The translations under genes were made by a program, and so were the position numbers. From positions 372,001 through 436,000 of the forward strand of contig NZ_CP102770.1 in assembly GCF_038561935.1 (NCBI RefSeq): a stretch of DNA of 64,000 nucleotides, in the 5' to 3' direction. A model generated the notes under the pieces. It searched no databases. It was not told the DNA's origin and saw nothing but the letters and a program-made list of their open reading frames with translations. Below, piece after piece: positions 12,873-26,452 of the stretch (its first letter is position 1; each line of letters starts with the position of its first letter). The stretch is from Myxococcus stipitatus. Its GTDB lineage: Bacteria; Myxococcota; Myxococcia; Myxococcales; Myxococcaceae.

Positions 12873-14062
12873 GTGACGAGCCGGACGATGCGCTCGGCGA
12901 CTTCCTTCGCGCCGTCGCGGGCGCGGTACGACGCGGAGACGGTGGCGAGCTTCGCGCGCAGCGGCGTGCCCGGCTCCAGGAGCTGGCGAAGCGCGTCGCG
13001 GCAGCCCTCCACCGTCAACGTGTCGAGCTCCCGCGTGAGGCCCGCGCCCGAGGCCTGGAGGAAGTGCGCCTGGATGGGCTGGTCGTTGCAGACGGGCAGC
13101 AGCAGCAGCGGGACCCCCGCCGTCAGCGCCTCCATCACCGAGTTGGCGCCGCCGTGCGAGACGAAGACGGAGGCCTTGGGGAGGAGCTGGCGCTGCGGCG
13201 TGTACGGGACGGCCACCACGTCGCCCGGCAGCGAGCGCGAGAACTCCGTGTCGGCCAGCTCTCCGGCGCTGAGGACCAGCGTGACGCCCAGGGGCGCGGC
13301 GGCCTCGGCGAGGGTGCGGAACAGCGTGGGCTGCCACGAAATCTGGCTGCCGAAGGACACATAGACCACGGGCTTCGAGCCCAGCCGCTCCCAGGGGAAG
13401 TCCACCTCGTCGCCTCGGGGCTCCGGTGGAATGGAGGGGCCGACCAGCACCGTGTCGGGAGGCAGGCCCGCGTCGGGGCCGAGGAAGGCCTCGGTGGCGA
13501 AAATCGTGTTGAGGTGCGGAGAGAGGCACTCACAGTTGCGGAAGCGCGCCTCGAAGCCGTGCTTCGCGAACAGCGCCGCGCGCTCCTGTGCCAGCGCGCG
13601 CACGTTGCGGCGCAGGCCGTAGTCCTCCATCGGCTCCAGCAGCGAGAGCGCGGAGGACACGCCCACCCACGGGAGCTTCTCCCGGTGCGCGGCCAGCACG
13701 GCGGCGTACTGCATCCCATCCAGCGCGAGGACGTCGGGGCGGAAGCTCCGGACGACCTGGCGCACGGGCTCCAGCAGCGCGGGCACCGCGTCGATGAGCA
13801 GTCCCCGAATCCACTTCCCCAGCGCCACCTCGTCGCGCACCAGGCGCGCCAGGGCCTCGCCTCCGGTCTCGATGGCGGGGGCCTCCTGTGTGAGCGGGGG
13901 CAGGTGGAGCACCTCGACACCCAGGTTCGCCAACTGCGGCGAGGGCTCCGGGATGCAGAGCCAGCCCACGGTGTGGCCCATGCGGCGCAGCCACTGCGCC
14001 ACGCCCATCATCGGGTTGATGTGGCCCTTCTCGGGAGACGTGCCAATCAGGATTCGGGACAT
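12869..14062 (-). CDS. MGT-type glycosyltransferase (GT1 family)
   Basis: A 397-residue GT-B enzyme. The N-terminal acceptor domain begins MSRILIGTSPEKGHINPMMG, matching the G-H-x-x-P loop of macrolide and UDP-glucuronosyl transferases. The C-terminal donor domain shows VVYVSFGSQ, the nucleotide-sugar motif FVSHGGANSVMEAL and GVPLLLLPVCNDQ. These features point to transfer of a sugar to a small hydrophobic acceptor such as a polyketide, macrolide or lipid (family knowledge). Its start overlaps the end of the ligase gene by 16 bp and its stop overlaps the next start by 4 bp, so the three genes are translationally coupled. The acceptor and sugar are unknown. Confidence 0.88.
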   Translation of the reverse strand: MSRILIGTSPEKGHINPMMGVAQWLRRMGHTVGWLCIPEPSPQLANLGVEVLHLPPLTQEAPAIETGGEALARLVRDEVALGKWIRGLLIDAVPALLEPVRQVVRSFRPDVLALDGMQYAAVLAAHREKLPWVGVSSALSLLEPMEDYGLRRNVRALAQERAALFAKHGFEARFRNCECLSPHLNTIFATEAFLGPDAGLPPDTVLVGPSIPPEPRGDEVDFPWERLGSKPVVYVSFGSQISWQPTLFRTLAEAAAPLGVTLVLSAGELADTEFSRSLPGDVVAVPYTPQRQLLPKASVFVSHGGANSVMEALTAGVPLLLLPVCNDQPIQAHFLQASGAGLTRELDTLTVEGCRDALRQLLEPGTPLRAKLATVSASYRARDGAKEVAERIVRLVT

Positions 14063-15447
14063 GAGGAGCCTCGTGCCGCGTGCGCGTGGAGCATGGCGAG
14101 GGAACACAACCGCATCAACAGGCGATCCACCGCGCTGGCCTCGGGCGCGTCGGGCGCCATGCGCGTGGAGTGCTCCAGCAGCGCCAGCGCGGCCTTCGGG
14201 TCGATGACCTCCAGCGGCTCCAGGCGAGAGGGGGACAGCCACGCGCGGTACAGCTCCAGCCAGCGGGCGCGCATGGGGCTGGAGAGCGCGGTGTGGCCGT
14301 AGCGCGGCGTCTTGCGCGCGAGCCGCACCTCGTCCGGGACGAGGCCGCGCACGCCCTGGCGGAACAGCCACTTGCCGACGCCTTCGCGCGACAGGGAGGA
14401 CTCCGGCAGCGCGAGCGCCACGTCCGCGAAGCGCGTGTCGAGGTAGGGCGTGTGGACGGTGAGCCGGTGGGTTCGCGCGCCGCGCAGCTCCGGGGGCAAC
14501 ACGAGCTCACGCAGCACCCACGCGGCATGGCGCACCTCTTCGGTGGCCTCCGCGTCCGCGAGCGACCAGGGCATCTCGTCGCGTGTGTCCCCCAAGTTGT
14601 CCACAGGAGGGCGCAGCACCGCGCGCGCGAGCCGCCGGTCCTCCTCGATGCGCGCCGCCGTCGCGGCCATCGCATTCGGATTCCCCCTGAGCACCTCGTC
14701 GGCGCCGGCCCCGCTGAGCATCACCGACGCGCCCAGCAGCCGGGCCGCCGCGTAGAAGGCGAAGCTCGCGATGACCCGCGCGTTGAGGAGCGGGGTCTCC
14801 GTGGCGATGACGGTGGGCTCGAACAGGTCGGGCAGCACGGCGTCCGGGATGGGCACGTCCACCAGGTCCACGCCCGTGAGGCGCGCGACGGTCCTGGCGT
14901 TGCGCCGCTCCGTCTCGTCGGCGAAGTGGACCTCCATGCTCCAGGCGCGGACCCGGCCGGGCGCGTGGCGGGCCGCCAAGGCACAGAGCACGGCGCTGTC
15001 CACGCCGCCGCTCAGGCTCACGTCCCGCGCCCCCGCGGCGACGCGTGCGCCCACCACGTCGGAGCACGCGGCCACGAGCCGCCGTGCCTGCTCGTCGTGG
15101 AGCTGGGCTTGGGCCTCGGTCGAGAGGGATGGCGCTGGCGCGGCTTCGCGATGGACGCGGGGAAGGGCTGGTGCCACGCGGTCCACGCCTCGGAACAGGC
15201 TCTGGTGCGGCGGCAGGGCGTGGAGCAGGAACGCGGCGGTGCACAGGGGCTCCAGCCCCATGAGCGGCGAGCTGGCGCCGTGTGTCTCCGAGGGCTCGGC
15301 GCGGGACTTCTCGTCGGGTGTCGTGGCTCTCGCTCGGAGCGGGGGCGGGAGCAACCGCCACACGGACTCCTGGGGCTCACCGGAGGGGGACTGGTAGGAC
15401 GGCAGGATGGCGAGCGGGCTGCTCGCGTCGCCAGAGGACGCTGACAC
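14047..15447 (-). CDS. Asparagine-synthetase-like ATP-dependent ligase lacking the glutaminase domain
   Basis: A 466-residue protein whose C-terminal three quarters is the PP-ATPase synthetase domain of asparagine synthetase B. The pyrophosphate loop SLSGGVDSAVLC is at about residues 144-155. Further motifs are LSGAGADEVLRGNP, HTPYLDTRFADVALALP and a C-terminal K-T-P-R-Y-G-H. The normal N-terminal glutamine amidotransferase domain with Cys2 is absent; only about 100 unrelated residues precede the linker-like FRGVDRVAPALP. Similar glutaminase-free members make amide or lactam bonds in antibiotic and peptide pathways (family knowledge). The start is GTG, 54 bp from the divergent radical SAM start. 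It leads the operon with the glycosyltransferase. Confidence 0.82.
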   Translation of the reverse strand: MSASSGDASSPLAILPSYQSPSGEPQESVWRLLPPPLRARATTPDEKSRAEPSETHGASSPLMGLEPLCTAAFLLHALPPHQSLFRGVDRVAPALPRVHREAAPAPSLSTEAQAQLHDEQARRLVAACSDVVGARVAAGARDVSLSGGVDSAVLCALAARHAPGRVRAWSMEVHFADETERRNARTVARLTGVDLVDVPIPDAVLPDLFEPTVIATETPLLNARVIASFAFYAAARLLGASVMLSGAGADEVLRGNPNAMAATAARIEEDRRLARAVLRPPVDNLGDTRDEMPWSLADAEATEEVRHAAWVLRELVLPPELRGARTHRLTVHTPYLDTRFADVALALPESSLSREGVGKWLFRQGVRGLVPDEVRLARKTPRYGHTALSSPMRARWLELYRAWLSPSRLEPLEVIDPKAALALLEHSTRMAPDAPEASAVDRLLMRLCSLAMLHAHAARGSSCPES

Positions 15448-15489
15448 GCGGTGACTGTCTCAAGGCCTGGGGGGACCCGGCAACCCCGC

Positions 15490-15495
15490 TATAGT
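15490..15495 (+). promoter_or_regulatory. Probable -10 element for a leaderless radical SAM transcript
   Basis: TATAGT lies 6 bases before the GTG at 15502. This is the usual distance from a -10 box to a transcription start, so the mRNA may begin at the start codon itself. There is no Shine-Dalgarno sequence before this GTG. No convincing -35 box is visible in the GC-rich stretch upstream. Confidence 0.45.
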
Positions 15496-15501
15496 CAGCG
15501 G

Positions 15502-16293
15502 GTGCGTTACGAGCTGCACGACGGCCGAATCCTCACTTGGTCCCTGGAGACGCACGTCGTCACCCACTGCAACCTGCGCTGCGTGCAGTGCTGCCCCATG
15601 TCGCCGCACCTGCCCGCGTGGGCCGTGGACCCCGCCGCGCTCCAGGCCGACCTCACCCGCCTGGCGCGAGTCCTCAAGCCCGACATCTTCAAGCTCACCG
15701 GGGGCGAGCCCTTCCTCCATCCGAATCTTCCCGCCGTGCTGGACGCTGTCCGAGCGTCCGGTCTCTGCGAGCAGGTCTCCGTCACCACCAACGGGCTGCT
15801 CGCCGCGAGCGCGCCGGAGGCCGTGTACGAGCGCCTGGACCGGATGACCCTGTCCGTCTACTCCTCCGCGCCGCTGCCGGAGAAGTCCCTGGCGCGCATC
15901 ACCGAGCGCTGTGAGCGCCACGGTGTCCACCTCTCGGTGAAGAACATCGACGCCTTCCAGCAGATCACACCGGACGCGCCGCTGGGCTCGGACGCGGAGG
16001 TGCGCGACGTCTACGCACGCTGCTGGTTGAAGGTCCGCTGCCACCTGGTCCACCAGGGGCGCTTCTACTCCTGCACCCGTCCACCGCATGTGGCCACGGT
16101 GCTGGGGCCCACGTATCCAGACATGCCCGCGCTCGCGGAGGTGGACGGCGTGCGGCTGGACGCGCCGGACCTGCTGGAGCGGATGCTGGGCCTCTTGGAG
16201 CGGGACACGCCGCTGGCCACGTGCCGCTACTGCCTGGGGGCCAGTGGCCCGTGGAAGCCACACGCGCAGCTGCCACGGGCACCTCGCGCCTAG
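15502..16293 (+). CDS. Radical SAM enzyme
   Basis: About 263 residues. The N-terminal motif CNLRCVQC (Cys 23, 27, 30 from the GTG at 15502) is the CxxxCxxC cluster that binds the 4Fe-4S and S-adenosylmethionine. [14 protein letters not shown] is the GGE motif that contacts SAM. Extra cysteines near the C-terminus (CWLKVRC, SCTRPP, CRYCLG) suggest a second cluster of SPASM or twitch type. An in-frame GTG at 15451 would add 17 residues, but a -10-like box before 15502 favours the shorter form. Divergent from the ligase operon with a shared 54-bp promoter region; it probably modifies the same product (inference). The stop overlaps the convergent reductase by 4 bp. Confidence 0.85.
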
Positions 16294-19847: not shown

Positions 19848-21197
19848 TCACCCGGTGCGGGAGCGCGGAGATGTTGGTGCGGCAACATGATTGCGGAAGG
19901 GGAGGGGCTTGCTCCCCGAGGACAGGGACGCCTCGCTCACGGCGCGCACGAGGAGCCGGGGCGGCTCGCTCCAGCCCAGGTTGCGCAGCGCGGAGGTGAG
20001 CCGCTCGCACAGCGGGGCCACGTCGGAGTCCACCGCGCCGGCCAGCTCCAGCTCGAAGCGCGAGGGCTCCACCTGGGTGAGTCGAAAGGCTCTCAGCGCA
20101 TGGTGCTTGAACACCCACGCCAGGGCCCAGGCATCCACGGTGCGTCCAGAAGGCAGAGTGTAATGGCAGGCGCCTCGGCCGCCGAATTGCCCCAGCGTCC
20201 ATCCGTGGAAACCGCAGGTGCACACCTCCCTGCATGTCCTTCCCGCGTCGCCCGGGAGGTAGCGGAGCAGGGGCAGCACGCTGGGGCGCAGGCGCGTCAC
20301 CACCACTTCGTCCGTGTCCGGCTCCAGCCACACGTCGGGCGCGAGGACATGGAAGCGGCCCGGGGTCTGGAGGCACTCCCACGCGAGGGGGCCGGTCTCC
20401 GTCGTCGCGTAATAGTTGAGGAGCGGGGCGGGCAGCACGCGCGCGAGCGCCGCGCGGGTGTCGTCGGGCAGGTGCTGCGCGGAGGTGAGCACCAGTGCGG
20501 GCAGCGGAAGGTCGCGCTGCTCGGCGAGCCAGCGCAGTCCCACCGGGTCCGAGAAGAGGATGGCGGGGCGCACGCGGCACAGGCGCTCCCGGGCGTCGTC
20601 GCGCAGCACGGAGATGCGGTGCAGCGCGCCGTCGTGGAGGATGGGCAGGCGCACCGAGTACTCCAGCCCTCCCGGCAGCGCGTCCAGCAGCACCACGCGG
20701 GGGCGCGGGGGCGGGGTGACACCCGCGCGCTCCAGCCAGAACCGCAGCACCGCCCACATGTGCAGGCAGTCGAGCCTGTCGCGCACCACCTTCACGGGCT
20801 CCCCTGTGGAGCCGGAGCTGCGCACCACCACGCCCTCGTCGTCGGCCGACAGCGGCGCGGGGACCTGGTCCCAGTGCCGGGCGAGGACGCTCCGCTCCAG
20901 CGTGGGGAAGTGGCGCAGGTCCTCGAGTGTCTGGAGGTCCCCGGGGTGCAGGCCCGCCTCGCGCAGGCGCCGGGTGTAGTAGGGCGAGGCGAGCAGCGCG
21001 TCCCGCAAGGGGCCGAGCCGGGACTCGAGCCGGGCGCGGGCCTGGGCTTCGTCCGTGAGCGAGGTGAAGTGGGACAGCGCGTGGGCGATGGACCGGGCCC
21101 ACGGGATGTGGCGGCGCTGGGTACCGGTGTCCCGGCGGATGTTCGCGCGGGGGGCCACGCGCACCTCCGGCGAGAGGCCGTGTGTCACTCGCGCCAT
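19848..21197 (-). CDS. Adenylate-forming ligase, phenylacetate-CoA ligase / F390-synthetase-like
   Basis: A 449-residue AMP-binding enzyme. VVRSSGSTGEPVKVV is the phosphate-binding P-loop of the ANL superfamily. LNYYATTETGPLAWEC is the adenine and Mg-binding core motif. LLRYLPGDAGRTC contains the Y-x-x-G-D motif. The C-terminal small domain is shortened. A CTCGFHG segment suggests a structural metal site, as seen in phenylacetate-CoA-ligase-like proteins. It should activate a carboxylate as an acyl-adenylate (family knowledge); the acceptor is unknown. The start at 21197 overlaps the preceding gene by 13 bp, coupling it to the MoxR/VWA unit, an unusual partner for this enzyme class. Confidence 0.82.
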   Translation of the reverse strand: MARVTHGLSPEVRVAPRANIRRDTGTQRRHIPWARSIAHALSHFTSLTDEAQARARLESRLGPLRDALLASPYYTRRLREAGLHPGDLQTLEDLRHFPTLERSVLARHWDQVPAPLSADDEGVVVRSSGSTGEPVKVVRDRLDCLHMWAVLRFWLERAGVTPPPRPRVVLLDALPGGLEYSVRLPILHDGALHRISVLRDDARERLCRVRPAILFSDPVGLRWLAEQRDLPLPALVLTSAQHLPDDTRAALARVLPAPLLNYYATTETGPLAWECLQTPGRFHVLAPDVWLEPDTDEVVVTRLRPSVLPLLRYLPGDAGRTCREVCTCGFHGWTLGQFGGRGACHYTLPSGRTVDAWALAWVFKHHALRAFRLTQVEPSRFELELAGAVDSDVAPLCERLTSALRNLGWSEPPRLLVRAVSEASLSSGSKPLPFRNHVAAPTSPRSRTG

Positions 21198-21751
21198 CCT
21201 CTCGCGTCGGCGGCGCGCTTCTCCGCCTCCTGAAGCTCCTTGAGGCGCTTGTCGGCCTCCCTGCGCCGGGCCTCCTCCGCGCGCTCCATCTCCTTGAGGG
21301 CGGCGCGGTAGTCGAGCTTCTTCAGCCGCGCGTCGGACTCCATCGCCGTCTCGCCCTTCACCTGGCCCTGCACCGCGTGCACCCACTTGCGCAGGAACTC
21401 CTCCTGACGGAAGGCGTTGGAGCGCACCATCTCCGCCGTCAGCGGCTCCACCCGCGTGAAGAAGAGGGCCAGCAGGACCCTGGGGTCGGCGTCCTTGCGC
21501 AGCGCCTGGGACGAGTCCTCGCCCAGCGTCGACGACGTCAGCACGTGCGCGAGCATCCCCACCTGCTCCTTCCAGAGGCCGGCGGCCTTCGAGGCGTGCT
21601 CGAGGCCGGCCCAGTCCGCGCGCGAGGGAGGGCGCAGGCCCGCCACGCGGAAGACGTCGCAGATGATGGCCACCGACAGGTCGTGCGGATACGGCGACAC
21701 GAGCGGGACGGCGGAGAGCTGCTTCTGGATGTCCTTGATGTCGAAGACCAT
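21185..21751 (-). CDS. Unknown charged protein of the MoxR/VWA unit
   Basis: A 188-residue protein with no domain I recognise. The N-terminal two thirds is mixed helical sequence (MVFDIKDIQKQLSAVPL, then ADWAGLEHASKAAGL). The last 45 residues are an almost continuous Glu/Lys/Arg/Ala helix (KEMERAEEARRREADKRL), a likely coiled coil or single alpha-helix. The start forms a TGATG overlap with the VWA gene stop, so translation is coupled. It may be an adaptor that links the VWA or AAA+ protein to a target (inference). No signal peptide; probably cytoplasmic. Confidence 0.8.
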   Translation of the reverse strand: MVFDIKDIQKQLSAVPLVSPYPHDLSVAIICDVFRVAGLRPPSRADWAGLEHASKAAGLWKEQVGMLAHVLTSSTLGEDSSQALRKDADPRVLLALFFTRVEPLTAEMVRSNAFRQEEFLRKWVHAVQGQVKGETAMESDARLKKLDYRAALKEMERAEEARRREADKRLKELQEAEKRAADARGWRE

Positions 21752-23412
21752 CACTTCTCCAGCAAAGCCTGGGACAGGGCCGCCGCGGCGGGGCCGAAGT
21801 CCGACAGCCATTTCACCACGACCAGGCGGAAGCCGCGCTCCCGCACCACGGGGGCCAGCGTCTGCCGCGCGTGGACATCATCCGCGAGCGAGAGCAGCGC
21901 GACGAGCATCCGCGAGCCCCTCACCGCCTCCACCAGCATGTCCATGTGGTCGTCGGTCGTCGCGTTCGCCAGGAAGTCGCTGTCGGAGATGATGACGCGC
22001 AGCACGTCCCGCTTCTCCCGCGCGGACTGGCGGAGCACGTCGAAGGGCAGCTGCGTGCCTCCGCCGATGTAGTGCAGGAAGAAGTCGCGGGCGTGCTCCT
22101 CGTCGTACATCCAGGGCGAGACGAGCGGCGAGCCGTGCGAGTAGATGATGCCGCGCACCCGGGCCTGCTTGCGCAGCGCGGAGGCGGACAGCACCTGCGC
22201 GGCCAGCGTCATGGCGTTGAGCTGCAGCTCCGGGTTCGGCATGGAGCCGCTGGTGTCCAGGTAGATTTCCAGCTCGGGCACGCCGGGCTCGGTGCCGGGG
22301 GGCTCCTCCGCTTCCAGCTCGCGGCGCAGCGGGGACACGGCGGCCAGGTGTCCCCGCGAGAGCACCGTCAGCGTCCAGTCGATGGCGGACGGGTCATCGC
22401 CATACTCCCAGGCCTCGGGCGTGGTGCGCAGGTAGGGCTCGACGCGGTTGGGTGCGGCGGGGAGCTTCAGGAGGTGCTTGTCGACCTCGCGCCGGTAGTG
22501 CCGGGACACCAGCGCGCGGCGCAGCTTGCCGTCGCCGGTGCCGGGCAGGCTCCGGGTGATGCGGTCAATGTTGGCGAGTGCGTCGGGCGCGGACGAGACC
22601 TGGTCCGCGCTCAGCCAGCCGCGCTCGCGGGCCTCGCCCAGCGCGTCCTCCCAGCGTCCGCCGCTCTGGAGCGCGGAGTCCCAGTCATCCACGTCCGGCG
22701 TGGGCACGTCGCTGGCCATGGGCATGGCGCCCGTGCCGTCGTCGGGGCCGGAGAGGTAGCGCAGGAAGGTGGCGCAGAAGTAGAGGAACTGGAGGCGCGG
22801 GTCGGGCAGCGCGTAGAAGGTCTGCGCGAAGACGCGCGCCTCCACGCGCAGGCCCGGGAAGCGCTCCTCCATGGCGCGCAGCTCCGTCCGAGGCACCAGC
22901 GTCCCGGGCTCGCAGCCCCACAGCTCCTCGTGGATGGACAGGTAGAAGAAGAACAGCGGGGACATCTCGCGGCGGGCGTAGACGCGCTGGAAGTTCCGGT
23001 ACACCCGGCACAGGTCTTCCCAGTGGGTGCGGCCCACCACTTCGTTGACCTGGAGGTCGTAGAAGAAGTTGGTCAGGGACTGCTTCAGGCCGGGGAGCAG
23101 CCGCTGCTCCATGACCTTCAGCTCCGCGTCCCAGCCCAGCGTGTGGGGGAAGCGGGCGTGGTGGCCGATTTCGTGGGCCAGCACGGCCATGAGGCTGGCC
23201 TCCGCGCTCATGGACTCCAGCAGGTGGAAGTTCACGAAGACCTGCCGCTTCACCATGTTGATGTAGGCGAGCGGCTCGTTCGCGGGGTCCGCGTCCGCGC
23301 GAAAGGGGACATGGGGCTCCGGAGGGCTCAGGCGCACCTGCACGTCCCACAGCGCCAGCGCGTCCCGCCAGCACTTCGCGATGAGCTCCGGTGTGAAGCG
23401 GGACGGGCTCAT
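21751..23412 (-). CDS. HEXXH-motif peptidase-like protein with C-terminal VWA domain
   Basis: A 553-residue protein. The N-terminal part carries VLAHEIGHHARFPH (HEIGH at residues 80-84), a zinc-peptidase HExxH motif. The C-terminal 175 residues form a von Willebrand A domain with the metal-dependent adhesion motif DTSGS at 386-390 (EIYLDTSGSM) and a further GGGTQLPFDVL. In MoxR-coupled systems, VWA proteins are remodelled by the AAA+ partner (family knowledge); fusion to a zinc-peptidase-like domain is less usual. No signal peptide or membrane segment, so it is probably cytosolic. Its ATG overlaps the upstream stop by 4 bp and its stop overlaps the next start by 1 bp. Proteolytic activity is not proven. 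Confidence 0.85.
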   Translation of the reverse strand: MSPSRFTPELIAKCWRDALALWDVQVRLSPPEPHVPFRADADPANEPLAYINMVKRQVFVNFHLLESMSAEASLMAVLAHEIGHHARFPHTLGWDAELKVMEQRLLPGLKQSLTNFFYDLQVNEVVGRTHWEDLCRVYRNFQRVYARREMSPLFFFYLSIHEELWGCEPGTLVPRTELRAMEERFPGLRVEARVFAQTFYALPDPRLQFLYFCATFLRYLSGPDDGTGAMPMASDVPTPDVDDWDSALQSGGRWEDALGEARERGWLSADQVSSAPDALANIDRITRSLPGTGDGKLRRALVSRHYRREVDKHLLKLPAAPNRVEPYLRTTPEAWEYGDDPSAIDWTLTVLSRGHLAAVSPLRRELEAEEPPGTEPGVPELEIYLDTSGSMPNPELQLNAMTLAAQVLSASALRKQARVRGIIYSHGSPLVSPWMYDEEHARDFFLHYIGGGTQLPFDVLRQSAREKRDVLRVIISDSDFLANATTDDHMDMLVEAVRGSRMLVALLSLADDVHARQTLAPVVRERGFRLVVVKWLSDFGPAAAALSQALLEK

Positions 23413-24242
23413 GCGGGCGCGAGCACCAGCACGAAGCGCGAGGTGTCCAGCGTGCCGGCGGCGCGCCAGTCATTGGCCGCGGTGGCGAAGAAGGCATCCA
23501 CGCGCGGGTCGTGCTCCTCCATGGCCGTCAGGTGCGGCGTCTTCACGTGAGTGACTTCGGGCGTCTCGCGGCAGCCCATGGCGCCGAGCGGAAGGGGCGG
23601 GTCTCCGACGAGGAGGAGGCCCTGCGTCGCGGCCTCGCGTCCGGCCACGGCGTGGCGGTGGCGGTCGTGCACGCACAGCACGGTGGGCGCGAGGAAGTGG
23701 ATGGCGCCCGGGAGGAAGCGGCTGTCCTCGCGGGACATGTCGATGAGGTAGGGCTGGGCGCGGTCGCCCAGCTTCTCGGTGGGCGGCTCCATCGCGAGGG
23801 AGGCGGTCTCTCGCAGGCGCTCCTCGATGCCGGAGAGGGACTCGAGCCGCTGGCCCACGCGGTGGAAGATGCGCTGCACCCAGGGCGGCGCGGACTCCAG
23901 GTTCTCGCCCACGTTCCACAGCTGCGCGAGCACGTTGGCGCGCGCGGACTCGGGGACGCCGGCGAGGAGGCGGGGCACCAGGTCCGACCACGCGAGGGTG
24001 AAGAAGTTCTGCCGGCCCGCGGTGGACGGGTAGAGGTAGCCCAGGCCGATGGCCTCCGAGCCCAGGCGCAGGTAGGCGCGCATCAGCTCCGCGGCGCTGG
24101 TGCTGGAGGCGCCGGACCTGGACAGGGCTTCACCCAGGCGCTGCGCGGGGCCCTCGCGCAGCTCTCGCCAGAGGTCCGCGTCCCAGCGCACGTAGCGGCC
24201 CTGGGCCTGGGCTTCGAGCTCGTCCTCGAAGGAGGTGCTCAC
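23409..24242 (-). CDS. Unknown protein between MoxR ATPase and VWA protein
   Basis: A 277-residue cytoplasmic-looking protein with no family I recognise. It starts at a GTGA overlap with the ATPase gene (VSTSFEDELEAQAQG) and ends in an ATGA overlap with the VWA gene. The first half is helical (YPSTAGRQNFFTLAW, then WVQRIFHRVGQRLESL). The second half has beta-like segments such as GAIHFLAPTVLCVHD and HRHAVAGREA, with many His and Asp residues. Its position between the AAA+ motor and the VWA partner is where ternary MoxR systems keep their third component, so an adaptor or effector role is plausible (inference). Confidence 0.82.
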   Translation of the reverse strand: MSTSFEDELEAQAQGRYVRWDADLWRELREGPAQRLGEALSRSGASSTSAAELMRAYLRLGSEAIGLGYLYPSTAGRQNFFTLAWSDLVPRLLAGVPESARANVLAQLWNVGENLESAPPWVQRIFHRVGQRLESLSGIEERLRETASLAMEPPTEKLGDRAQPYLIDMSREDSRFLPGAIHFLAPTVLCVHDRHRHAVAGREAATQGLLLVGDPPLPLGAMGCRETPEVTHVKTPHLTAMEEHDPRVDAFFATAANDWRAAGTLDTSRFVLVLAPA

Positions 24243-25774
24243 GGCCGGCCTCCGGGGTTGTCCTTCAGCCACGTCGCGTAGTTGCGGTAGCGGCTGTACA
24301 TGGACTTGAGGTGGATGAGGTCCTCGTAGACGGGGCCGGAGAGCTCCTGTCTGGTGAGCAGCTCGTTCATCAGCGCGGTGACGGAGGCCATGCGCTTCTC
24401 GGTGGTGCGCAGGTCGATGCCGGACAGGCCCTTGTCGAGCTCCTCGCGCAGCACGGCCACCTTGCGGCGGATGGGCTGGTGGCGCTCGTGGTGCTCCATG
24501 GCCATGTCGAACATGTGGCGAATCCACGCGACGCGGTCCTGGAGGAGGACCTTGTGGCCCTTGGCCTCGAAGAAGGCGCTGCGGGTGTTGGGGACCAGCT
24601 TCTCGTGCAGCACCCACGGGGCGATTTGACGGAAGTCCTCCAGCTCCACCGTCTTGTGTCCGCGGAAGAAGGCGAGCGCCTTCGCGTAGTGGAGGATGGT
24701 CTGGTAGGCGCGCACGCTGACGCCGTTCTCCGTCTGCGTGCAGAGGTGCACCTTCTTGTCGAGCGGGCACTGCTCGTTGCACACGGCGGAGACGGACTGC
24801 CCGGCGAGCTTGAGGGTGTCCTTGTGCTTGAACTCGAAGCGGGGCGAGGCCATGCGGCAGAAGTCGAGCTGGCCCAGGAAGAAGGCCACGCGCTCGAGGA
24901 CGTCCTTGGGGACATCGACCTCGAGGATGGAGGCGTAGGCGCGCTCCAGCTCTCCGTCGGTGAAGATGATGTCCTTGGGGAGCATCTCCTCGGGGGACTT
25001 GTCGGCTTCGATGCGCTGGAGGAGGGTGTCGATGAAGTTCGAGTTGAAGGGGACGGCGCGGACGACGACGTCAAGGCGGTCCTTGAGGGCCTCGATGACC
25101 TGGAAGGTGCCGCCGCCCTGGTCGTCATTGGCGGTGAGGAACCAGGAGGAGCGTCCCGCGTAGACGTACTGGTCCATCATCTCCGCGTAGCCCTCGGCCA
25201 TGAGGGAGAGGAGGGCGGACTGCGTCTTGGTGGGGATGCGGTTGTACTCGTCGATGATTTTGACGCGCTGGGTGATCCACTTGCGCCAGCTCACCTTCAC
25301 GGCGGAGAGGTCATCCGCCTTGAGCATGTCGGAGGGGAGGGGGGCGCCGAGCAGGTCCGCGATGGAGAGCTGGGGGTGGCCGCGCTGGATGGAGCGGCGG
25401 ATGTCCTCGCGGGACATGCCGGACAGGAGGGCCATGAGGATGGCGGAGGTCGTCTTGCCCCGGCCGGGGCCGCCGATGAGGAGGGCGCGGCGGCAGGTGA
25501 AGAGGGTGAGCAGGGGGATGAGGACGAAGGAGCTGTAGCTCATGTCCTCGGGGAGGTGGACCTCGTCCCCGGCGGAGTTCTTGAGGGAGGCGGAGCCTCC
25601 GAACTCGATGTCGTAGTAGGGGCAGATGACGGCGTTGTTGGTGATCCACCAGTACGCCTGCCGCATCTTGTCGTGGAGGCTGCCCCCGTCACGCTCCGAG
25701 AGGTGGACGTTGAGTCCCTTGTCCACCGAAGCCCGCCCCGTGAGCAGGCGCGACACCCAGTCCTGATTGGCCAT
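24239..25774 (-). CDS. MoxR-type AAA+ ATPase
   Basis: A 511-residue AAA+ ATPase of the MoxR branch. Walker A is GGPGRGKT at residues 101-108 and Walker B is VKIIDEYNRI at 171-180. A sensor-1-like stretch, SSWFLTANDDQGGGTF, follows at about 209-224. A Cys-rich insertion (VCNEQCPLDKKVHLC) suggests a metal site. MoxR ATPases act as chaperone-like remodellers that load metals or activate VWA partner proteins; the partner here lies two genes downstream. No Shine-Dalgarno precedes the ATG. It starts 30 bp after the LuxR-type gene stop, so the regulator is probably part of the same transcript. Confidence 0.88.
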   Translation of the reverse strand: MANQDWVSRLLTGRASVDKGLNVHLSERDGGSLHDKMRQAYWWITNNAVICPYYDIEFGGSASLKNSAGDEVHLPEDMSYSSFVLIPLLTLFTCRRALLIGGPGRGKTTSAILMALLSGMSREDIRRSIQRGHPQLSIADLLGAPLPSDMLKADDLSAVKVSWRKWITQRVKIIDEYNRIPTKTQSALLSLMAEGYAEMMDQYVYAGRSSWFLTANDDQGGGTFQVIEALKDRLDVVVRAVPFNSNFIDTLLQRIEADKSPEEMLPKDIIFTDGELERAYASILEVDVPKDVLERVAFFLGQLDFCRMASPRFEFKHKDTLKLAGQSVSAVCNEQCPLDKKVHLCTQTENGVSVRAYQTILHYAKALAFFRGHKTVELEDFRQIAPWVLHEKLVPNTRSAFFEAKGHKVLLQDRVAWIRHMFDMAMEHHERHQPIRRKVAVLREELDKGLSGIDLRTTEKRMASVTALMNELLTRQELSGPVYEDLIHLKSMYSRYRNYATWLKDNPGGRP

Positions 25775-25804
25775 GTGCGAGGGAGCGTAGCAAATGGCAT
25801 GGGG

Positions 25805-26452
25805 CTACAGGGTGACGAGTCCCAGGCGCGCCGCGCGCACCACGGCCTCGGTGCGGCGCTGCACGCCGAGCTTGGCGAGCACCGCGTTCACATGGAACTT
25901 CGCGGTGTGCTCGCTGATGGCGAGCCGGTCCGCGATGGCCTTGTTCGACAGCCCCTCCGCCAACAAGGCGAGCACCTCGCGCTCCCTGGGCGTGAGCGCC
26001 TCGGGGCCGGGTGAGTGAGGGGCCTGGACAGGCGCGCTCCTCGGCGCCGCGCGCACGTCCGCGAGCCCCGCGTCGAACACCGCGAGCCCTTGCGACACCG
26101 CGGACAGCGCCGACGTGAGCGGACCTGGGCCGACGTCCCGGAACAACAACCCCCGCGCCCCCGCGCCCAACGCGAGCTCGCCCGCGGCCTCGTCCGCCAC
26201 CAGGGCCAACACCGGCGCGCCCAGGTCCGGCAGCTCCACGCGCCCGTCCGCCTCCTGTAACCGCATTCCCGTGTCCCAGAGCACCACGTCGGGTGCCTCG
26301 CCCCGGGTCGACTCCAGCTCCACCTGCGTCCCGGCGCCCATCAACAACAGCTCGCCCCCGCGGTCGCCCAGCACCCGTGACAGCGCACCCCGCGCCAGCG
26401 GGTCTTCCGCGACGAGCACGAGACGAATCGGAGGGAGGGAGGCATCCAACAC
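25805..26452 (-). CDS. LuxR-family response regulator-like protein
   Basis: A 215-residue protein with an N-terminal receiver-like domain (about 8-120) and a C-terminal LuxR/FixJ helix-turn-helix (about 150-210: [21 protein letters not shown], with [17 protein letters not shown] as recognition part). The expected phospho-acceptor is Asp60 in PDVVLWDTG. The conserved receiver lysine near position 108 is missing: the usual G-x-L-x-K reads GLLFRD. The domain may therefore be degenerate and work without phosphorylation. It is the first gene of the MoxR/VWA unit, with 30 bp to the ATPase start, and is probably its own regulator (inference). Confidence 0.85.

Follow-up and report, generated by a model that had tools for sequence, protein, structure and literature searches.

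Protein machines that pair a MoxR-type AAA+ ATPase with a VWA domain protein are widespread, and the few that have known jobs mostly serve metal insertion. In the NorQ/NorD complex, remodelling is established and NorQ drives NorD by twisting (PMC13036017, in excerpt). The MoxR-vWA ternary systems of Kaur and colleagues fall into four classes, VMAP, iSTAND, FtsH and beta-propeller, and rare metallopeptidase effectors as well as a linked zincin peptide-processing system are mentioned in the same source (PMC7159879, in excerpt). Here we describe a locus in a stretch of 64,000 nucleotides from Myxococcus stipitatus (assembly GCF_038561935.1, contig NZ_CP102770.1, positions 372,001 to 436,000; hereafter the window, to which all positions below refer), whose host genome is 10.17 Mb in size. 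Five of its genes, encoding a MoxR-type ATPase, a protein termed g2, a protein with an HEXXH region and a VWA domain (HEVWA), a charged helical protein termed g4 and an adenylate-forming ligase (LIG), constitute a module whose joint inheritance in very distant microbes suggests an apparently undescribed protein-processing machine.

The module resembles NorQ/NorD and CoxD/CoxE in joining a MoxR-type AAA+ ATPase to a VWA protein with a metal ion-dependent adhesion site (MIDAS), and the predicted VWA domain of HEVWA resembles that of NorD. It differs from both in having three further partners, g2, g4 and LIG, and in lacking a client gene within the operon, and we know of no HEXXH region in NorD. 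With the ternary systems it shares a MoxR AAA+ ATPase that is paired with a vWA protein and accompanied by system-specific partners, and a distant branch (locus L048) carries a WD40 protein upstream of MoxR. However, no effector or beta-propeller domain lies C-terminal to the vWA domain, which ends HEVWA, and g2 and g4 belong to no library family; neither had a match of the VMAP, iSTAND or FtsH type above cut-off in Pfam, NCBIfam or PADLOC, a comparison in which the VMAP profile itself was not run. The terms 'adenylat' and 'HEXXH' are absent from the main text of PMC7159879, no such ligase is named among the classes described there, and the excerpts of PMC7159879 and PMC8195603 contain neither an HEXXH-vWA fusion as a core component nor a ligase of the LIG kind. 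No description of the five-gene module was found in open-licence PubMed Central. Within that literature, the coupling of MoxR/VWA to a zinc-peptidase-like protein and an acyl-adenylating enzyme is undescribed, as the original prediction had supposed.

Six open reading frames lie on the minus strand of the window between positions 26452 and 19848. In 5′ to 3′ order they encode a LuxR/NarL-type regulator of 215 aa with a GTG start (25805 to 26452; Pfam GerE, 70.8 bits), and then the five core proteins, namely MoxR of 511 aa (24239 to 25774; Pfam AAA_3, 30.6 bits, and AAA_lid_2, 42.8 bits, both above cut-off), g2 of 277 aa with a GTG start (23409 to 24242), HEVWA of 553 aa (21751 to 23412), g4 of 188 aa (21185 to 21751) and the PaaK-like ligase LIG of 449 aa (19848 to 21197). 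The regulator and MoxR are separated by a gap of 30 bp, and the following junctions overlap by 4, 4, 1 and 13 bp. These coordinates and spacings, when re-derived, agreed with those first assigned to the six genes. The GC content at third codon positions was 0.92 to 0.96 in all six, and scans for promoters and terminators at the locus gave no signal above chance. Library profiles name the outer members of the set (MoxR, LIG and part of HEVWA) and not the middle proteins, and PADLOC had no match for MoxR, g2, g4 or LIG.

The regulator does not belong to the conserved unit. The original prediction had described a six-gene unit with its own LuxR-type regulator, and the two genes are indeed adjacent in the window, but among 49 loci with HEVWA and LIG the regulator lay within 200 bp of MoxR in just 24, at 253 bp in 1 and beyond 1 kb in 15, and was not found in 9. 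This variable distance rules out a six-gene unit that includes the LuxR gene, which would provide local regulation only, if any. The module therefore comprises five genes, MoxR, g2, HEVWA, g4 and LIG.

When 195 Myxococcota genomes were searched with HEVWA, 55 matched, among them every one of the 27 from the window's genus. Two genomes were dropped. In G157, HEVWA fragments (57 bits) and a LIG interrupted by a stop (110 bits) occur on opposite strands; in G069, a match of 22 bits covers the VWA part only. This left 53 convincing HEVWA genomes. The order MoxR-g2-HEVWA-g4-LIG was recovered by tblastn, over 60 stretches, in the family's main loci and in L039, a locus that belongs to a different family, and both the place of g2 in this order and its homology are kept among relatives. 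We then extended the scan to 84,980 species genomes, using the HEVWA alignment, which holds no ligase information, as the query, and found at least 33 loci; the relatives of the window genome among the loci listed were the myxobacteria Myxococcus, Pyxidicoccus and Corallococcus. With profiles trained on Myxococcota only, 28 of the 33 loci listed were found to have LIG downstream in the same orientation, although related Myxococcota members are themselves among the 33. The LIG-bearing loci come from Myxococcota, Pseudomonadota (Hahella and Panacagrimonas), Bacteroidota (three Flavobacterium) and Actinomycetota (Microbacterium, Mycobacterium, Actinokineospora and others), and from metagenome-assembled genomes (MAGs) labelled Acidobacteria and Planctomycetota and a MAG of the Asgard archaeon Candidatus Sigynarchaeum; the MAG labels may be in error, and closely related genomes contribute repeatedly to the count. 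In L106, LIG lies about 7 kb downstream. Five listed loci have no adjoining LIG: in L107 the contig ends within HEVWA, and in L101, L109, L114 and L119 LIG is found elsewhere in the genome, with g4 beside it in 3 of the 4. Eight further HEVWA loci were obtained from genome samples, of which 5 hold the whole module, while LIG and g4 are unlinked in the other 3 genomes. Because the order recurs in other phyla, the five-gene set is more than a chance grouping. The original prediction had named a lack of conservation of the ligase and small proteins next to MoxR/VWA as the outcome that would speak against it; instead, the five genes were found together across phyla.

Several variants of the module were also seen. 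Six genomes of the window's genus (L041 to L046) contain a second, diverged MoxR-g2-HEVWA-g4 set that has no adjoining LIG and whose g4 ends in RGKW. Three distant Myxococcota loci (L048 to L050) have MoxR and HEVWA with a WD40 protein upstream of MoxR (by Pfam on L048 only), and g2, g4 and LIG were not detected in them; in L049, genes for a radical SAM protein and a transglutaminase-like protein lie close by. The mycobacterial locus L129 is a rearranged module, in which HEVWA precedes MoxR and a second, partial HEVWA is present. In 396 Actinomycetota genomes, full-length HEVWA matches occurred in 2, counting the centre, and 16 weaker matches were not counted as module members. The three of these that were examined (L209 to L211) are actinobacterial MoxR-VWA pairs akin to HEVWA that have no HEXXH, and no strong LIG occurs in their genomes.

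The association of LIG with HEVWA does not depend on their adjacency. For these surveys the best 8 candidates per genome were scored for LIG in Myxococcota, the best 4 for LIG in Bacteroidota and the best 3 for HEVWA in the genome samples. In the window genome the module LIG was the sole match to the LIG profile, and of 20 genomes of loci, 16 had a LIG match of at least 388 bits, the best match outside the module being 79 bits. Among the 195 Myxococcota genomes, LIG reached at least 198 bits in 50, all of them within the 53 with convincing HEVWA, and no strong LIG was present in a genome without HEVWA; the three HEVWA genomes without strong LIG are those of the WD40-linked branch. Among 345 Bacteroidota genomes, HEVWA was found in 6 and LIG of at least 365 bits in exactly the same 6, the next match scoring 121 bits. 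Since HEVWA, LIG and g4 are on different contigs in three of these six genomes, the agreement does not arise from linkage. It would be expected by chance with a probability of about 4e-13 if the genomes were independent, which they are not, the six falling into two clades of the LIG tree. These LIG hits in locus genomes, together with the co-occurrence in Myxococcota and Bacteroidota, rule out a chance neighbourhood. HEVWA and LIG, and g4 where it was sought, are thus co-inherited even where they are unlinked. As a separate observation, a genome of the same order has a second LIG-type gene of 436 bits away from the module (G155:C1:113727-114971).

Profile-profile comparison of the myxobacterial and the distant alignments confirmed that the shared names denote homologous families, with E values of 2.8e-68 for HEVWA, 1.8e-39 for LIG and 2e-13 (probability 98%) for g4; for g2, the value was 2.4e-5 (probability 76%, over 128 columns), and the negative control, g4 against g2, gave 0.16.

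The catalytic and metal-binding motifs of the ATPase and of HEVWA are intact. MoxR carries the Walker A motif GGPGRGKT at residues 101-108 (25451 to 25474, minus strand), which is kept in aligned relatives, and the Walker B motif VKIIDEYNRI; intact Walker motifs, along with a MIDAS pattern of DxSxS-T-D, are expected of a pair of the NorQD/CoxDE type. A cysteine cluster in the lid region of MoxR (C332, C336 and C345) is possibly a metal site. Between 7 and 10 of 31 aligned proteins have it. It is kept in some clades and lost in others, and is not a hallmark of the module because relatives without HEXXH have it too. In HEVWA, the HEXXH motif HEIGH (HEIGHH in the sequence) occupies residues 80-84 (23161 to 23175, minus strand) and was invariant in the 24 aligned sequences of alignment A11, as were N115, D119 and N123, among which the third metal ligand can only be guessed. 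The MIDAS motif DTSGS lies at residues 386-390 (22243 to 22257, minus strand), with D386, S388, S390 and D477 invariant in A11. Across the 28 module-type HEVWA proteins examined, all had HEXXH with the NxxxDxxxN pattern and 27 had the MIDAS, the remaining one being cut by a contig end; the three actinobacterial MoxR-linked VWA relatives had the MIDAS, and none of the three had HEXXH. The HEXXH region of the window HEVWA scored 26.6 bits against Pfam Peptidase_M48, above the cut-off of 20.3. Unlike members of family M48, however, HEVWA matches over about 50 residues only and is fused to a VWA domain, and the distant member L108 fell below the cut-off. The predicted structure of HEVWA (mean predicted local distance difference test score, pLDDT, 82.2) has a clear VWA domain at about residues 377-552 of 553, with nothing C-terminal to it. 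This domain was similar to the VWA domain of NorD from NorQD complexes (Z 14.1-14.7), and the closeness is shared with other VWA domains because the Rea1 MIDAS (14.5), Rpn10 and others reach similar Z scores. A phage or plasmid origin was not adopted, as two HEVWA queries against plasmids and one against phages found no match.

LIG is a member of the adenylate-forming enzymes by its ANL motifs. The adenylation P-loop SSGSTG is at residues 127-132 (20802 to 20819, minus strand), and alignments also showed ATTETG-type and YRTGD-type motifs and the C-terminal lysine, some rows being missed by strict motif patterns. LIG shares its fold family and motifs with the PaaK-like and DVU_1553-family ligases, and its best solved relatives are phenylacetate-CoA ligases. 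Nevertheless, it scored 26.2 bits against Pfam AMP-binding, under the cut-off of 29.9, and its best NCBIfam match, the DVU_1553 ligase (NF045666), was 69.2 bits for the window protein, 93.6 for L116 and 99.8 for L110, against a cut-off of 300. In a phylogenetic tree, 46 module ligases were split from 11 other PaaK-like sequences by a branch with 100/98 support.

The two remaining proteins have no library match. For g2, no family was found in Pfam, NCBIfam, PADLOC or PHROGs; its AlphaFold2 model (mean pLDDT 90.7) has a helical N-terminal half and a beta-rich C-terminal half. Foldseek against the PDB returned nothing at an E value of 0.001 or better (best 0.52), which is not proof of a new fold, and a structural aligner matched residues 159-277 to beta-propellers with borderline Z scores of up to 8.5. 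The g4 protein had no match above cut-off in Pfam, NCBIfam or PADLOC, and is a conserved family with a C-terminal tail, GWRE in the window (21188 to 21199, minus strand), whose last residue is kept. In 39 mostly distant loci, g4 ended in E in 36 and in RE in 24, whereas the commonest last residue occurred in 9 of 33 MoxR, 16 of 33 g2, 8 of 37 HEVWA, 8 of 38 LIG, 4 of 16 NadR and 7 of 16 PnuC proteins. Over 92 loci the last residue was E in 83, W in 6, V in 2 and H in 1. The six ending in W all belong to second sets without adjoining LIG, and the three ending in V or H are all actinobacterial, with LIG present. We considered the tail as a by-product of the overlap with the LIG start codon. This was ruled out because the tail is kept where g4 is unlinked, the three unlinked Bacteroidota g4 proteins ending in MRE. 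Judged by this pattern of conservation, the very end of g4 is read by something, and candidate readers are LIG, as a carboxylate activator, the MIDAS of HEVWA and the MoxR pore. For NorD, the MIDAS metal has been proposed to bind an acidic residue from the partner protein (PMC9976466, in excerpt).

When genes next to the module were clustered, only PnuC, NadR and radical SAM genes recurred across genera. PnuC and NadR together carry out nicotinamide riboside uptake and synthesis of nicotinamide adenine dinucleotide (NAD). PnuC was identified in L116 (Pfam NMN_transporter, 182 bits) and NadR in L116 and L120 (TIGR01526, 183-188 bits, under the cut-off of 341). By profiles built from such loci, several of the hidden Markov models for the 33 listed loci having been trained in part on the loci scanned, this NAD salvage pair lies beside the module in 16 of 41 loci, comprising 12 of the 33 listed (L112, L115 to L118, L120 to L122, L124, L126, L127 and L131) and 4 of the 8 new ones (L202, L203, L207 and L208), belonging to Actinomycetota, Bacteroidota and Pseudomonadota. 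It is upstream of MoxR in most and follows LIG in L112, L207 and L208. The link suggests that, in the lineages concerned, a substrate, cofactor or client of the module is connected with NAD. Pfam also confirmed radical SAM genes next to the module in L112, L207 and L110, the last with two, and another that follows the second set in L041. Elsewhere in the window, a gene with an asparagine-synthase domain (14050 to 15447, minus strand) is divergent from a radical SAM gene (15451 to 16290, plus strand); the pair at 14050 to 16290 is possibly part of a peptide-modifying locus, and no test ties it to the module.

These data are best read as a remodelling machine of the MoxR/VWA type that incorporates a zincin domain and has a carboxylate-activating enzyme of its own, and we give an even chance to the view that MoxR, g2, HEVWA, g4 and LIG work as one ATP-driven protein-processing machine. 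A MoxR hexamer would grip HEVWA by its VWA domain, in the manner of NorQ and NorD, and would use ATP to remodel a client recognised by the MIDAS and the beta-domain of g2. The HEXXH domain could cut this client, or a leader off it, while LIG would activate a carboxylic acid as an adenylate. The activated group might be placed on the client or on g4, and the conserved tail of g4 would dock in the machine or be used by it. The idea of the original prediction that LIG may modify a molecule or protein handled by the AAA+/VWA machine is plausible. Some observations weigh against such a machine. LIG must be dispensable for some versions, since LIG and g4 are missing from the WD40-linked branch, whose three Myxococcota genomes have MoxR and HEVWA, and the second sets of six genus genomes have no adjoining LIG. 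The homology of g2 between clades is the weakest of the tested families, the third metal ligand of the zincin-like site is a guess only, the HEXXH half of the HEVWA model had no peptidase-fold match in a search whose output was filled by the VWA domain, and there is no solved structure of a full HEVWA homologue. In addition, the genome to which the window belongs has no PnuC, and neighbour clustering revealed no client gene conserved beside the module, a distant client being still possible.

The same parts could instead serve as a maturation chaperone, in which a NorQD/CoxDE-like MoxR/VWA pair opens a metalloenzyme so that its cofactor can be inserted, the HEXXH region binds metal or cuts a leader, and LIG helps to make or attach the cofactor, which is perhaps nicotinamide-derived and supplied by PnuC-NadR. 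Metal insertion by NorQD is established (PMC13036017 and PMC9976466, in excerpt), the HEVWA VWA domain is closest to NorD among the best rows, and PnuC-NadR and radical SAM genes accompany some modules. We still consider this explanation somewhat unlikely, because neighbour clustering showed no conserved client enzyme beside the module, PnuC is missing from the window's genome, and the PnuC-NadR and radical SAM genes each occur in a minority of loci. The reading as a MoxR-vWA ternary conflict (immune) system, raised by the original prediction, gained no positive evidence. Such systems have been proposed in multicellular bacteria including deltaproteobacteria (PMC7159879, in excerpt), and the patchy spread of the module, with so few full-length matches in Actinomycetota, would be in keeping with one. 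However, PADLOC was blank for MoxR, g2, g4 and LIG, there is no variable effector and no effector domain after the VWA domain, the unit is kept throughout the window's genus, and the plasmid and phage queries with HEVWA were empty, so that we regard a conflict role as highly doubtful.

The g4 tail calls for another comparison, with Pup, a protein of about 60 residues. LIG could activate the C-terminal glutamate of g4 and join g4 to targets that MoxR-HEVWA would unfold and cut, following the logic of the Pup-proteasome system with unrelated parts. The Pup-like C-terminal glutamate or glutamine is present in g4, a tail with a constancy that no other family of the module approaches and that persists in unlinked copies; LIG is the sole evident carboxylate-activating enzyme of the set, and where no LIG adjoins, the six second sets end in RGKW. 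Yet those six are one clade and count as one event, g4 ends in V (two) or H (one) at three loci despite the presence of LIG, and the tail may instead be a docking element for the MIDAS or the MoxR pore. At 188 aa, g4 is also far above Pup in size, and the ligase is not of the PafA type but PaaK-like, a group known for acting on small acids. Protein tagging is accordingly improbable in our view. We set no higher store by its fuller form, a ubiquitin- or Pup-like tagging and breakdown system in bacteria and an Asgard-archaeal MAG, in which g2 would recognise tagged or g4-bound clients and PnuC-NadR would be an NAD-linked supply arm in many lineages. Finally, LIG might be a housekeeping acyl-CoA ligase that merely shares the operon. 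PaaK-like enzymes are common, and weak LIG-like matches at an E value of 0.001 were found in 118 of 195 Myxococcota and 159 of 345 Bacteroidota genomes, as is to be expected because the enzyme family is large. This explanation is contradicted by the co-occurrence of HEVWA and LIG where they are unlinked. Moreover, LIG of at least 198 bits occurred only with HEVWA, the next best matches being the 110 bits of the degenerate locus and the 121 bits seen in Bacteroidota, and the module ligases form one clade, which makes an ordinary neighbour extremely improbable.

The module would thus add a new branch to the MoxR/VWA machines, in which the VWA protein includes a zincin-like domain, two families match no library entry and a carboxylate-activating enzyme is dedicated to the set, all of them retained jointly over very distant lineages. 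If LIG serves a cofactor, the branch would represent a novel maturation pathway with a link to NAD salvage; if it acts on g4, it would represent a new protein-tagging chemistry and a categorically new system.

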